Shown here: in pieces, positions 16,543 through 23,133 of the stretch
Layout of the letters: each line of letters starts with the position of its first letter
How positions within the stretch are numbered: position 1 is the first letter of the stretch
Assembly (NCBI RefSeq): GCF_028274965.1
Contig: NZ_JAQCNO010000040.1
Location: 1-64,000, forward strand
DNA from: Natronomonas sp.
GTDB taxonomy: Archaea; Halobacteriota; Halobacteria; Halobacteriales; Haloarculaceae
Length of the DNA stretch: 64,000 nt
Direction of reading: 5' to 3'
The notes under the pieces: model-generated
Databases searched by the model: none
The model's input: the letters and a program-made list of their open reading frames with translations, nothing else
Told to the model about the DNA's origin: nothing
Position numbers and translations under genes: made by a program

Positions 16543-16664
16543 GTGGCACGGGTTCTCCCGGGATGTTTTTAAACGCTTCAGTTCGTCTCCTCCGGTCGGT
16601 CGGGGGGTTCGGGGCGGAGGGTCAGGCGGATCGGGCGGCGCGTTCTCCATCGGAAACGGAGGGG

Positions 16665-18419
16665 TCAGTTGTCGAACCGGGACTGGACGAACGGCTGGGT
16701 GTCCTCGACCTCGCCGACCCGGGAGTCCGAGAGGAGGACGGCTTCGGTCTCCTCGAGCGGCACCGAGAGGTTGATCTCCTTCGTCCGGCCGTAGCGGCCC
16801 TTCGAGACGACGACGGCGTTGACGATGCCGAGCATGTCGAGTTCGCTTATCAGGTCTGTGACGCGCCGCTGTGTGAGGACGTCGGCGTCGATCTCCTGAC
16901 AGAGCCGCTTGTAGATGTTGAACACCTCGCCGGTGTTGATGTTGTGGACGCCGTTCTTCTCGAGGAGGATGGTGGCGTAGAGGACGAGTTTCGATTGGGT
17001 CGGCAGCGTCCGGACGACCTCGACGACGCGGTCGAGTTCGATCTTCTGTTGGGCCTTCCGGACGTGGCGTTCCTCGACCGTTTCGGTTCGGTCCCGCTCG
17101 GCGAGCTCGCCGGCCGTCCGGAGCAGATCGAGCGCGCGGCGGGCGTCGCCGTGCTCCTGTGCGGCGAAGGCGGCACAGAGCGGGATGACGTCCTCCGAGA
17201 GGATGTCGGGTTTGAACGCAGTCTCCGCGCGGTGCTGGAGGATGTCGCGGAGTTGGGTGGCGTCGTACGGCGGGAAGACGATCTCCTCCTCGCCGAGGCT
17301 GGATTTGACCCGGGGATCGAGGAAGTCGGTGAACTTGAGATCGTTGGAGATGCCCATGATCGACACCCTGGAGTTCTCGAGTTCCGAGTTCATCCGCGAG
17401 AGATTATACAGCGTGTCGTCCCCGCTTTTCTCGACGAGTTTGTCGATCTCGTCGAGCATGATGACGACCACCCGTTCGTGGTAGTCGACGGCCTCAAAAA
17501 ACGTCGAGTACACCCGGTCGGTGGGCCACCCGGTCATCGGGACCGGGTCGAACTCCGCGAGGTCGGCCTCGAGTTCCTCGATCCGGCCGTCGACGGCGGG
17601 GACGCTGTCGAAGCCGGTGTCCTCGAGGGCGGCCTCGGCGTCGGCCGCCCGCTCTCGGAGTTCGGTGAGCGTTTCGAGGCGCTCTTCGATGTGGGTCTCG
17701 TTGTTCTCGATGAACTTGTTCGCGAGCTGTGCGAGCACGCGGTACTGGGTGTCGGTCACCTCGCAGTTGATGTACTGGACCTCACACGGGACCTCGTACT
17801 TTTTCGAGGTCGTTTCGAGTTCCTCGCTGACGAACTTCGCGCTCGCGGTCTTTCCGGTCCCGGTCTTCCCGTAGATGAGGATGTTCGACGGCGTGTCGCC
17901 CCGGAGCGCCGTCACCAGGATCGTCGCCATGTTGTTGATCTGCTCCTCGCGGTGGGGGAGCTCGTGTGGGGTGTACGAGGGCCGGAGGACCTCCTTGTTC
18001 TCGAAGATCGGCTCGCCCTCGAGGAGGTCGTCGAAGAGCCCGCGGGAGGCCTCGTCGGGTTCGTCGCCGGGGTCGTCCTCGAGATCGAGGTCGTCGAGCG
18101 TGATGTCGTCGGCGAACCTGTTTATCTCGGTGGATCCGGTCGGTCCGTCGGCCGCGGCGTCGGGGTCCGCGTCCGGCGCGTCCGCTTCAGGGCCCAACCC
18201 GGACTGATACCCCTTCGTTTCGTCTGGAGCGTTCGGGTCTGGAACGTTCGTGTCGTCGGACAGCGTCCCTGGGCTCGGGGTTTCACCGTCGGGTACGCCC
18301 GTCTGCTCGTCGGAACCCGTCGCTCCGTTCGACGGCGAGTCGGCGGAACCGTCTTCCCCCGAATCGCCGGACGAGGCGTCCCGTTCCGACCGTCGTTCTC
18401 CGGTGTTTTCGTCTGTCAT
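16665..18419 (-). CDS. orc1: Orc1/Cdc6 replication initiator (oriC1-linked)
   Basis: A 584-residue AAA+ initiator. An acidic disordered N-terminal extension of about 130 residues precedes the AAA+ domain: Walker A in IYGKTGTGKTAS, Walker B in VVIMLDEIDKLV, sensor 1 MGISNDLK, sensor 2 HGDARRALDLLR, then the DNA-binding winged helix. An extra coiled-coil-like insert (ERLETLTELRERAADAEAAL) lies between. This form sits beside the main origin in haloarchaea. An ORB-like box lies just upstream of its start and another inside its 5' coding part, suggesting autoregulation. Confidence 0.92.
   Translation of the reverse strand: MTDENTGERRSERDASSGDSGEDGSADSPSNGATGSDEQTGVPDGETPSPGTLSDDTNVPDPNAPDETKGYQSGLGPEADAPDADPDAAADGPTGSTEINRFADDITLDDLDLEDDPGDEPDEASRGLFDDLLEGEPIFENKEVLRPSYTPHELPHREEQINNMATILVTALRGDTPSNILIYGKTGTGKTASAKFVSEELETTSKKYEVPCEVQYINCEVTDTQYRVLAQLANKFIENNETHIEERLETLTELRERAADAEAALEDTGFDSVPAVDGRIEELEADLAEFDPVPMTGWPTDRVYSTFFEAVDYHERVVVIMLDEIDKLVEKSGDDTLYNLSRMNSELENSRVSIMGISNDLKFTDFLDPRVKSSLGEEEIVFPPYDATQLRDILQHRAETAFKPDILSEDVIPLCAAFAAQEHGDARRALDLLRTAGELAERDRTETVEERHVRKAQQKIELDRVVEVVRTLPTQSKLVLYATILLEKNGVHNINTGEVFNIYKRLCQEIDADVLTQRRVTDLISELDMLGIVNAVVVSKGRYGRTKEINLSVPLEETEAVLLSDSRVGEVEDTQPFVQSRFDN
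18208..18231 (-). promoter_or_regulatory. ORB-like origin recognition box inside orc1
   Basis: The accccttcgtttcg core of the origin boxes, followed by tctggagcg, lies within the 5' part of the orc1 coding sequence. Orientation is the same as the left main ORB at 18876. About 19 of 22 core positions match the main boxes. Confidence 0.55.
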
Positions 18420-18430
18420 GCTCGTGAGAA

Positions 18431-18454
18431 CCCCCTTCGTTTCGGATGGAGTCG
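18431..18454 (-). promoter_or_regulatory. ORB-like origin recognition box in the orc1 leader
   Basis: A cccccttcgtttcgg box followed by atggagtcg, starting 12 bp upstream of the orc1 start codon on the other side of the ATG. Same orientation as the left main ORB. The likely orc1 TATA element (tttattata on the minus strand, near 18562-18572) is about 145 bp upstream of the ATG, so this box would be inside the mRNA leader, well placed for binding by its own product. Confidence 0.55.
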
Positions 18455-18875
18455 CGCCGTCCGACGCCCGGAATACCCCCGATGGCCCGTGACACCCGGT
18501 TCGGCGCGCGTCGGCGTTTCACCGCCCTCTGATTGATGCAGTCGAAACGATGGTCGAACGGTATAATAAACCTTGTCATCGGGTGAGCGTCCTGCTGCCC
18601 CGGGCGTACCACCGCCGTTGCGGGGCTCAACGTTCGCCGATAAGGTAAATACGTCTAAGTGGTCTCGAAAGGCGGACTGTCCGGGCGAACCGGGAACGCG
18701 TCCCGAGGACCAGATCACTCGGATCGCCAGCGACACCGCGGGACGTTCACCGAGAAGCCACCCGGATGTCGCGGCGTGATAGCTCTCATTGGGGCACCAG
18801 CCGAGACTGTGCCGAGTCCGGGGTCGGACTGTGGACACCGGGCAGTTGTCGGATGGCGGGCTGAATGGCGGGTAC

Positions 18876-18905
18876 CCCCCCACCCCTTCGTTTCGAGTGG
18901 AACAG
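18876..18905 (-). promoter_or_regulatory. Left origin recognition box (ORB)
   Basis: Minus-strand box with core gttccactcgaaacgaagg and a following G-rich string. It is an exact 30-bp reverse complement of the right box at 19227-19256, the strongest inverted repeat in the window. Orc1/Cdc6 binds ORBs asymmetrically, with the G-string a haloarchaeal addition. Confidence 0.88.
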
Positions 18906-18929
18906 AGAACGGGTGGGTGGGGGAGGGGT

Positions 18930-19120
18930 CGGGGAGTATTATTTCGTTACTTATAGGGAAAGTTTTAATATAGTGTATGAGAAAATATATCCGTATGACA
19001 AGAACAGCTGAATAGGTTACGCTTCTAGTTACTGTACGGTATGTTCTAGTGTAATTTAATTTATGCTGTCCGTACATTGTTCAAAGGTACTAAAATACAG
19101 TCTGGATGTAATAATGTCGG
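18930..19120. promoter_or_regulatory. AT-rich candidate DNA unwinding element
   Basis: About 190 bp with long A/T runs (for example agttttaatatagtg and gtaatttaatttatg), unlike anything nearby and lying exactly between the two inverted ORBs. It contains no credible ORF. This is where origin melting would be expected. Confidence 0.75.
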
Positions 19121-19226
19121 AAGGACTCCGACAGCCAAACCCGTGCCCTCCTTCGACTCTCCTCCCGTCTCCTGTTCGCAGCGGCTCAAACCCGCCACAT
19201 CCCTTCCCCGCCCACACGCCGTTCGA

Positions 19227-19256
19227 CTGTTCCACTCGAAACGAAGGGGTGGGGGG
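19227..19256 (+). promoter_or_regulatory. Right origin recognition box (ORB)
   Basis: Plus-strand partner of the left ORB: gttccactcgaaacgaagg followed by the G-string ggggtgggggg. Thirty of thirty bases match the reverse complement of 18876-18905; the boxes are separated by 321 bp. Confidence 0.88.
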
Positions 19257-19572
19257 CATGAGGCGGATCGGCAGTACCGTTTCACCACCGCACGTCCCAC
19301 CGCCGTCAGCACCGACGCTGCCTCCGCCCCCGATGCAGACACTGATACCGACCCGACCGGTACCGATCCGACCGGTGCTTCTCGTACCAACGCGTCGCCC
19401 GGCACCCGCCAACGAGCCCGAAACCGGACACCGGGCCAACAACACCGCACTCGTCCGTCGATCGCCCTCCGACTCCGACGGCGGTCCGCGTCCGCGACGG
19501 CGGCTCGACGTATGCCGTCCGTCTGACGTACGCTTAAGTAAATCCGGCGTGGACCTGAAGCAAGAGCGACTC

Positions 19573-19592
19573 CGATTTCGACCCGAAATCGG
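19573..19592. promoter_or_regulatory. Short inverted repeat ahead of oapA
   Basis: An 8-bp inverted repeat, cgatttcg and cgaaatcg separated by 3 bp, lies about 20 bp before the oapA start. A TATA-like cttaagtaaa is farther upstream (about 19532). It could form a hairpin in the mRNA leader or be an operator. Confidence 0.4.
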
Positions 19593-19609
19593 GGGCGTCG
19601 GAGGATGAT

Positions 19610-20251
19610 ATGGGACTGTTAACAACCCTCAAATCGAGCGTTTCCCGGGCGACGTCGAGTCTGTTCGCGGGCGAAGAGACGAAACGGATCGGGATCTACG
19701 GCCCGCCCAACGCCGGCAAGACCACGCTGGCGAACCGTATCGCCCGCGATTGGACCGGCGACGCGGTCGGACCCGAGAGCCACGTGCCACACGAGACGCG
19801 CCGCGCTCGCAGAAAGGAAAACGTCGAGATCAAGCGCAACGGCAAGTCGGTCACCATCGACGTCGTCGACACGCCGGGTGTCACAACGAAGGTCGACTAC
19901 ACCGAGTTCCTCGAACACGACATCGAGAAGGAGGACGCCGTCCGCCGATCCCGCGAGGCGACCGAAGGCGTCGCCGAGGCGATGCACTGGCTCCGGGAGG
20001 ACGTCGACGGGGTGATCTACGTCCTTGACGCCGCCGAGGACCCGTTCACGCAGGTCAACACGATGCTCGTCGGCATCGTCGAGAGCCAGGACCTCCCGGT
20101 GCTCATCTTCGCCAACAAGATCGATCTCGAGGAGGCGAACGTCCAGCGCGTTGCGAACGCGTTCCCGCAACACGAGACGGTACCGCTTTCGGCGCTCGAA
20201 GGCGAAAACATGGACGAAGTGTACGACAAGATAGCGGAGTACTTCGGGTGA
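19610..20251 (+). CDS. oapA: OapA, origin-associated Era/Der-like GTPase
   Basis: A 213-residue GTP-binding protein with G1 GPPNAGKTT, G3 DTPGVTT and G4 NKID, preceded by gaggatgat ahead of the ATG. It fits OapA, the first of three genes flanking oriC1 in haloarchaea. In Haloferax the oap genes have been studied as origin-linked genes; a direct replication role is suspected, not proven. Operon with oapB and oapC, gaps of 4 and 21 bp. Confidence 0.88.
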   Translation: MGLLTTLKSSVSRATSSLFAGEETKRIGIYGPPNAGKTTLANRIARDWTGDAVGPESHVPHETRRARRKENVEIKRNGKSVTIDVVDTPGVTTKVDYTEFLEHDIEKEDAVRRSREATEGVAEAMHWLREDVDGVIYVLDAAEDPFTQVNTMLVGIVESQDLPVLIFANKIDLEEANVQRVANAFPQHETVPLSALEGENMDEVYDKIAEYFG

Positions 20252-20762: not shown

Positions 20763-21761
20763 ATGCCACACCAGTGTACCGGCTGCGGCCGGACGTTCTC
20801 GGACGGATCGAAGGAGATGCTGTCTGGGTGTCCGGACTGCGGCGGCAACACGTTCCAGTTCCGGCCGGCCGATCCGTCGTCCGGCGGCCCCGGCGACGCA
20901 GAGAGCGCGGCCCAAACCGACGCGACCCAAACCGAGACGGGTGACCCTCCCGGCGGCTCCCCGAGCCGACCGGAGACGGACACCTCCTCGGTCGCCGAGA
21001 CCGTCGGGCGGGCGACGACGAAGGTGCGCGATCTCGTTTCGTCGGACCCGACCGGGACGGAACCGGATGCGGACACCGAATGGCCCGACGACTGGGGGAG
21101 CCAACCGACGTCCTCGAACCCCTCGGTTTCGAGTGGAAAACGCGACGCCGAACGGAACGCCGCCGATCGGGACGGCATAATCGACGCCGACGCCCGTCGG
21201 GAGACGCCCGAGGACTCCGAACCGAAGGAAAGCGCCGCCCAGGCGAGCGCCCGAACGGACGTGGTTTCGCCCGACGAACTCCGCTCCGACCCAGACACCC
21301 CCGACACCCCCGACCCAGACACCCCCGACACCCCCGACACCCCCGACCCAGACACCCCCGACACCTCCACTCCCGATACCTCCGAGTTCGATAGCCTTGA
21401 TCCCGTACCCGAGGAAGCCGAACGCCCCGACGGGGAGACTGAAACCAAGGGCGAACGGCCGGAGACCGAGACCGAGGCTGAACGGCCCGAAACGTCGGCA
21501 CAGAACGCCCGAGACGCCCCGGCCCCCGCCTCCGGCGAGATCGTCAGCGAACCGACCGACGAGGACCCCGACCTGGCGGAGCTCCGAGAGCAGCTGAACG
21601 ACCAGTTCGAATCGATCAAGATCATCGAACCGGGGCAATACGAACTCAACCTGATGGAGCTGTACGACCGCGAGGAGTACATCATCGCGCTACAGGAGAA
21701 CGGCCGTTACGTGATCCAGGTCCCCGAGCAGTGGATCGGCGACGATCCCGAGGGCCGCTGA
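20763..21761 (+). CDS. oapC: OapC, zinc-ribbon origin-associated protein
   Basis: A 332-residue protein: an N-terminal zinc ribbon (HQCTGCGRTFSDGS, SGCPDCGGNTFQF), a long acidic low-complexity middle with a PDTPDT/PDPDTP tandem tract (about residues 180-200), and a conserved C-terminal domain of about 70 residues (FESIKIIEPGQYELNLMELY, YVIQVPEQWIG). The layout suits OapC. An ORB-like box lies inside the coding region at 21117-21142. Confidence 0.87.
   Translation: MPHQCTGCGRTFSDGSKEMLSGCPDCGGNTFQFRPADPSSGGPGDAESAAQTDATQTETGDPPGGSPSRPETDTSSVAETVGRATTKVRDLVSSDPTGTEPDADTEWPDDWGSQPTSSNPSVSSGKRDAERNAADRDGIIDADARRETPEDSEPKESAAQASARTDVVSPDELRSDPDTPDTPDPDTPDTPDTPDPDTPDTSTPDTSEFDSLDPVPEEAERPDGETETKGERPETETEAERPETSAQNARDAPAPASGEIVSEPTDEDPDLAELREQLNDQFESIKIIEPGQYELNLMELYDREEYIIALQENGRYVIQVPEQWIGDDPEGR
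21117..21142 (-). promoter_or_regulatory. ORB-like box inside oapC
   Basis: aacccctcggtttcgagtgg, followed by aaaacg, matches 19 of 22 positions of the oriC1 boxes in the same orientation as the left ORB. It lies in the disordered part of the OapC protein, where codons are free to drift, so a DNA-level constraint is plausible. Confidence 0.45.
21296..21372. repeat. Proline-aspartate-threonine repeat tract in oapC
   Basis: Roughly 75 bp of ccagacacccccgac-type units encoding alternating PDTPDT and PDPDTP. It arises by DNA slippage and lies in the disordered linker of OapC. Confidence 0.8.
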
Positions 21762-22005: not shown

Positions 22006-23133
22006 TCACTCGTCTTCGAGGCGATCGAGGACCGCCTCGGCGTCGTAGGACAGAGACAGCGCGCGCGACCGACCCCGTCCGTCGACGTCGGTGTACTCGG
22101 CCTCGATCAGCCCGAGCTTTTCGAGTTTGTTGATTATCTCGGAGTACCGCGTGTACCCGAGGTCCGTCCGGTCGCTGAACGCGTCGTAGACGTCGCCGGC
22201 CTGTTCGCCGTCGTGGTCCGCGAGCACGCGAATCAGCGCTGCCTCCGAGTCCGACAGCCCGCGCAGATGCCGCGATAGGTGGACGTACTTCGCCTTCTGG
22301 TAGGCCGTATCGACGTCTTCGATGGCGACGTCCGCCGAGCCGCGCATCTCCGCGTTCAGCCCGGCCCGCCGGAGGAGATCGATCCCGACCCGGAGGTCGC
22401 CCCCGCTGTCGGCCGTGTGCTCCGCGATCCGATCCAGCACGCGCGGCCCCACGGCGCCCTCCCGGAAGCCGCGTTCGACGCGCTCTGTGAGGATGTCTGC
22501 GATCTCCCCCTCGCCGTACGCCCCGAAGTACACCTCCTCCGGGCGAAAGACCGACTGAACCCGGCCGTCCAGCGCCTCGATGACGTCCAACTCGAGGTCC
22601 GACGAGACGATGATGACGCCGATCTTCGCCCCCGAGTGGGCCTCGTGGGCGCGCAACAGCGAGTACAGCGTCTCCGACGCCTCCCCCTCGTAAAAGAGGT
22701 AGTTGACGTCGTCGAGCGCGACTGTGAGGACCTCGTCTTCCTCCACCAACCGGTCGGTGATCTGCCCGAACAGCTTCTTGAAGGAGATCCCCGACGTCGG
22801 CGGTTCGTACTCGAAGAGCCCCTCGAAGAGACGCGAGAACACGGCGTACCGCGTCGAGTCGACCTGACAGTTCACCCGGATCGCCTCGACGTCGTTGACC
22901 CCGGCGAGTTCGTCGAACAGCTTCTGTACGGCCGTCGTCTTCCCGGTTCCGGGCGGCCCCCTCGCCATCACGTTCAGCGGTCGCGAACCGCGAACGGCCG
23001 GCCGGAACGCGTACTTCAGCGTCTCCATTTGCTCGTCCCGGTGGAGAAACGCCTCGGGGAGATAATCGAGTTCGAGGACGTGCTCGTCGCGAAACACCGA
23101 CTCGTCCCACGAGAGCATGTCGTCGTCGGCCAT
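22006..23133 (-). CDS. Second Orc1/Cdc6 family protein, divergent Walker B
   Basis: A 375-residue AAA+ protein of the Orc1/Cdc6 family: Walker A GPPGTGKTTAV, sensor 2 GGDLRVGIDLLRRAG, and a C-terminal winged helix (YTRYSEIINKLEKLGLIEAEY). Walker B reads VALDDVNYLF, so the usual Asp-Glu is Asp-Asp, and sensor 1 is VSSDLEL rather than the ISN type. It lacks the long acidic extension of Orc1. It faces the oap operon tail to tail; its own start region has no recognisable ORB. Confidence 0.85.
   Translation of the reverse strand: MADDDMLSWDESVFRDEHVLELDYLPEAFLHRDEQMETLKYAFRPAVRGSRPLNVMARGPPGTGKTTAVQKLFDELAGVNDVEAIRVNCQVDSTRYAVFSRLFEGLFEYEPPTSGISFKKLFGQITDRLVEEDEVLTVALDDVNYLFYEGEASETLYSLLRAHEAHSGAKIGVIIVSSDLELDVIEALDGRVQSVFRPEEVYFGAYGEGEIADILTERVERGFREGAVGPRVLDRIAEHTADSGGDLRVGIDLLRRAGLNAEMRGSADVAIEDVDTAYQKAKYVHLSRHLRGLSDSEAALIRVLADHDGEQAGDVYDAFSDRTDLGYTRYSEIINKLEKLGLIEAEYTDVDGRGRSRALSLSYDAEAVLDRLEDE

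Follow-up and report, generated by a model that had tools for sequence, protein, structure and literature searches.

The oriC1 region of a Natronomonas-like haloarchaeon and ORB-like boxes in and near replication genes

The intergenic region between orc1 and oapA of Natronomonas sp., which occupies exactly positions 18420–19609 of the window (the whole 64,000-nt stretch of DNA analysed here), carries two inverted origin recognition boxes (ORBs) that are identical over 30 nt. This locus raises the questions of whether it is the chromosomal origin oriC1, what keeps its two boxes identical, and whether such boxes are confined to the origin.

Organization of the origin region

The genes and elements of the region are as follows.

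16665..18419, minus strand: orc1/cdc6 initiator gene (Cdc6_C, Cdc6_lid, AAA), homologous to crystallised archaeal Orc1
18876..18905, plus strand: left ORB, one arm of the 30-bp inverted repeat, bearing a halophile G-string and kept in 112 oriC1 loci
18911..18934, plus strand: G-rich element GGGTGGGTGGGGGAGGGGTCGGGG next to the left ORB on its inner side, forming the left part of the G-rich inner inverted repeat, which is imperfect
18947..19096, no strand: AT-rich putative duplex unwinding element, the highest-AT 150 bp of the window (69% AT)
19200..19219, minus strand: G-rich element next to the right ORB on its inner side, the right-hand counterpart of 18911..18934 in the imperfect inner repeat
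19227..19256, minus strand: right ORB, 30 nt identical to the left one (inverted-repeat and core searches)
19610..20251, plus strand: oapA (ArvA), small GTPase (PMC10927574)
20256..20741, plus strand: oapB (ArvB), PF09846
20763..21761, plus strand: oapC (ArvC), PF09845

Both arms of the inverted repeat (18876–18905 on the plus and 19227–19256 on the minus strand) read CCCCCCACCCCTTCGTTTCGAGTGGAACAG; they lie 321 bp apart and the sequences mismatch at both ends of the 30-nt arms. No other exact inverted repeat in the window with its arms within 1 kb is as long, and 20 dinucleotide shuffles gave maxima of 13–17 nt; the 23-mer core of the ORB occurs twice in the window against an expectation of 0. 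The AT maximum of the window, whether taken over 100, 150 or 200 bp, sits between the arms (18934–19133, 66–70% AT), so that the exact ORB pair around an AT-rich core reported in the preliminary description is borne out. The cumulative GC skew peaks at 19124, consistent with an origin, and the inner G-rich inverted repeat is present in an imperfect form (82% over 51 nt).

Among archaeal Orc1 proteins of known crystal structure, 2qby and 2v1u match the orc1 product, and the closest named relatives of OapA are from Natronomonas. OapA owes its original name to its position; it is now called ArvA and is a GTPase involved in vesicle formation (PMC10927574). The presence of oapA therefore marks synteny rather than a replication function.

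The window thus combines inverted ORBs bearing the halophile-specific G-string, an AT-rich region between them, an adjacent orc1 of the oriC1 type and the oap synteny. By analogy with known haloarchaeal origins, the region is oriC1, the presumed ancestral chromosomal origin of a Natronomonas-like haloarchaeon. Gene content, AT-rich core, skew peak, inner G-rich repeat and the conservation of the locus among haloarchaea all support this assignment, which the preliminary description also made from the G-string ORBs between orc1 and oapABC. It is an origin of a known kind and adds one more well-formed oriC1 to those described. The Haloarcula hispanica oriC1-cdc6A locus (as well as those of Halobacterium NRC-1 and Haloferax volcanii) likewise has inverted G-string ORBs, an AT-rich region and a G-rich inner repeat, with orc1 and oap genes alongside. 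In H. hispanica, autonomous replication is impaired by deletion of either ORB and does not occur at all once either G-string is mutated; the G-rich inverted repeat adjoining the ORBs on their inner side serves as an enhancer (PMC3936714). The window differs from the known cases in that its arms are identical over 30 nt, its 22-nt cores are farther apart than most (325 bp, the median being 238) and its inner repeat is imperfect instead of perfect. As in these relatives, Orc1 encoded by the adjacent gene would be expected to bind both inverted G-string ORBs, and the AT-rich stretch between them would open, leading to MCM loading and bidirectional replication.

A divergent second Orc/Cdc6 paralogue, 28–33% identical to orc1 in the matched parts, is encoded on the minus strand at 22006–23133, just past oapC. 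A search of the genome (2.28 Mb in 73 contigs, 94% complete) with Orc1 matched only these two genes. Two is a low number for a haloarchaeon; possibly the strain relies on oriC1 only, or further genes are missing from the draft.

Identity of the two ORB arms

Aligning oriC1 across relatives, as proposed in the preliminary description, revealed the same layout in 112 distinct haloarchaeal loci, of which the window is the extreme case. The accompanying statement that the ORBs of haloarchaea as a rule differ at several bases also held: among the 112 distinct ORB pairs the modal counts were 26 and 27 matches out of 30, and 30/30 was found in the window only. The 22-nt core was identical in 16 of the 112 pairs and an exact run of at least 28 was present in nine.

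Most of the 30 ORB positions are near-invariant across all haloarchaea, so the two boxes of a genome have to agree at just a few free positions. When left and right boxes were taken from different genomes, 30/30 was reached in 0.26% of combinations; given this cross-genome rate, one such pair among 112 does not stand out. Purifying selection on the box accounts for most of the arm identity.

The arms could also have been homogenised lately, through gene conversion or inversion-mediated exchange, and the standing of the window as the sole 30/30 pair of the 112 fits such an event. Within-genome pairs are in fact more alike than shuffled ones (31 identical variable triplets against 16 expected), and they slightly exceed cross pairs with the nearest relatives (26.0 vs 25.4 of 30, P = 9e-5); the outer flanks of the ORBs show a marginal within-genome excess as well (P = 0.03). 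The inner 30-nt flanks, however, show no excess similarity in within-genome over cross-relative pairs (P = 0.47), and since they are not homogenised gene conversion is not indicated. The arm identity in the window ends at the box ends, and most of the positions involved are near-invariant in all haloarchaea anyway. We therefore regard recent homogenisation as improbable. The slight within-genome excess fits co-adaptation of the two boxes to one Orc1 at least as well as it fits conversion, and the simplest reading of the arm identity is such co-adaptation together with strong constraint. Thus, of the two causes put forward in the preliminary description, strong selection is upheld by the near-invariant positions, whereas recent gene conversion finds no counterpart in the inner flanks.

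ORB-like boxes in and around orc1 and in the DP1 gene

The preliminary description was limited to the oriC1 ORB pair and overlooked accessory boxes near and inside orc1. Pattern searches with the box motif, from which all whole-genome box counts given here derive, found a few further boxes in the genome; several are near orc1 and oap and one convergent pair is on another contig (C22), inside the gene for DP1, the small subunit of PolD.

18431..18450, plus strand: accessory ORB-like box situated 11 nt before the orc1 start codon and lacking the extended G-string (motif search)
18209..18228, plus strand: accessory ORB-like box in the 5' coding part of orc1, coding for PDETKG (motif search; codon constraint in orc1 homologues)
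16646..16665, minus strand: ORB-like box at the orc1 3' end, fitting the degenerate consensus, with three mismatches to the strict one
21118..21137, plus strand: ORB-like box inside oapC with 1–2 mismatches, weakly supported across genomes
C22:14392-14469 (L003 ~1500-1577), beyond the window: two convergent ORB-like boxes within this genome's gene for PolD DP1 (motif search)

Across 81 oriC1 loci totalling 667 kb (the window and 80 named ones), the degenerate box had 305 matches, the oriC1 pairs included, compared with 0 for the reversed pattern. In 49 of 72 genomes, going from the left ORB towards orc1, at least one further plus-strand box was found within 1.1 kb (56 plus-strand vs eight minus-strand boxes). 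The oapC box is unsupported as a general feature, with too few matching motifs in 80 oapC genes. An element of the sequence TTTATTATA at 18562–18570 (read on the minus strand) looks like the orc1 TATA box; if it is, the boxes at 18431 and 18209 come after the transcription start, the former within the leader and the latter within the 5' coding region.

The orc1 and DP1 boxes match the ORB core consensus ACCCCTYCGTTTCNNNTGGA. The extended halophile G-string is absent from the accessory boxes, the 6 nt that precede the box containing on average 1.9 C in DP1 and 1.2 on the orc1 side, compared with 5.6 at oriC1. They are for this reason referred to here as ORB-like and not as full haloarchaeal ORBs.

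Of 70 distinct DP1 genes from haloarchaea, 61 had one or more boxes (up to two mismatches allowed) in their N-terminal linker region, and the control gave 0; four of the 70 had no box even at three mismatches. All 88 boxes detected in DP1 genes are in the linker and none is in the catalytic part. The convergent pair was found in 33 of the 70 genes, with a spacing of 58 bp in 29 and of 55 bp in four. In Natronomonas, the box occurs in all 20 genomes searched and, among the matches listed, many have the 58- or 55-bp pair. Six genomes in which the DP1 gene is ~24–58 kb distant from oapA or located on a different contig (G000, G149, G033, G139, G116 and G148; loci L167, L169, L186, L187, L202 and L218; positions compared by hand) keep at least one box at no more than one mismatch. 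The boxes were absent from 20 DP1 genes of other Halobacteriota, and we rejected the view that they are an ancestral archaeal feature.

The peptides encoded by the DP1 boxes (DPSVSTG and SPVETKG) and the reading frame are constant wherever the boxes occur, as would be the case if the boxes were a by-product of selection on the protein. Codon usage was therefore compared in motif instances chosen by peptide, not by DNA. In the DP1 motifs, the codons were CCA in 54/54 cases (background 10%), GAA in 54/54 (29%), GTT in 34/34 (9%), ACT in 25/25 (9%) and GGA in 30/31 (13%), although the binomial P values of this test overstate the significance, the genomes being related. Similarly, PxETxG in orc1 homologues was coded by CCA..GAA in all 23 of 23 instances (the open frames were left untrimmed at their start, so a few may lie just upstream of the start codon). 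Rare synonymous codons are thus near-invariant inside the motif and not elsewhere in the same genes, which places the constraint on the DNA; judged from the sequences, this is not the pattern that protein selection would give. Furthermore, the two DP1 boxes are inverted and code for different peptides, and the same box is also found outside coding sequence, both at oriC1 and ahead of orc1. Peptide-level constraint as the sole cause of the DP1 boxes is rejected by the codon usage, and a by-product origin of the in-gene boxes is very improbable.

A combination of oriC1 with accessory boxes constrained at the DNA level is a highly probable overall reading of these data.

Possible functions of the accessory boxes

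The accessory boxes matter more than oriC1 itself. They are most likely candidate Orc1-binding regulatory sites: Orc1 may bind them as regulatory or titration sites, tying the initiator level to the output of orc1 and PolD. Gene control as an effect of this putative binding is proposed tentatively. It is conceivable, with a similar degree of reserve, that boxes in the haloarchaeal orc1 and DP1 coding sequences are bound by Orc1 and kept at the DNA level, the initiator directly controlling its own gene and that of a replicative polymerase. If so, they would link initiation capacity to replisome supply. The accessory boxes lack the extended G-string that origin activity in H. hispanica requires; they are therefore unlikely to be origins, and for the same reason they could be weak or unbound by Orc1.

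In Escherichia coli, the datA locus and the DnaA boxes of the dnaA promoter are initiator boxes outside the origin that serve in titration or autoregulation. The initiator and the box are unrelated to those discussed here, where the boxes are in coding sequence and binding is putative.

The accessory boxes might instead form an initiator-titration reservoir, comparable to datA or to oriC2D of H. hispanica, and have no part in regulating their host genes. Many of them cluster within ~10 kb of oriC1, and in H. hispanica an ORB cluster downstream of oriC2 limits that origin, likely by titration (PMC3936714). Like the accessory boxes, oriC2D consists of ORB elements near an origin that are not an origin themselves, and it has been proposed to titrate Cdc6. 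It differs in being intergenic, downstream of cdc6E; the boxes described here are beside or inside orc1 and inside DP1, often as a fixed-spacing pair in the latter. A reservoir of this type is rather unlikely, given that the number of boxes is small and that the distant DP1 genes still keep a box.

That the DP1 pair is a second, dormant origin is hardly credible: its boxes are convergently inverted, in the same orientation as at oriC1, but these 20-nt boxes are just 38 bp apart, sit within coding sequence and have the low C count given above in place of an extended G-string.

Searches of the openly readable literature turned up no description of ORB-like boxes inside the DP1 or orc1 coding sequence, although an earlier description is possible. 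The 2012 survey of haloarchaeal ORBs was confined to the intergenic DNA on either side of orc/cdc6 genes and counted a box only if it had a G-string (PMC3528665), so in-gene boxes would have escaped it. For studying how the initiator level is coupled to the expression of replication genes in archaea, a conserved pair of initiator boxes in a replicative polymerase gene offers a cheap and concrete target.

In Haloarcula genomes, another box, ACCCCTTCGTTTCATCTCGA, is found repeatedly at sites distant from oriC1 (G020 C21:55329, G126 C1:969314 and G091 C1:160086).
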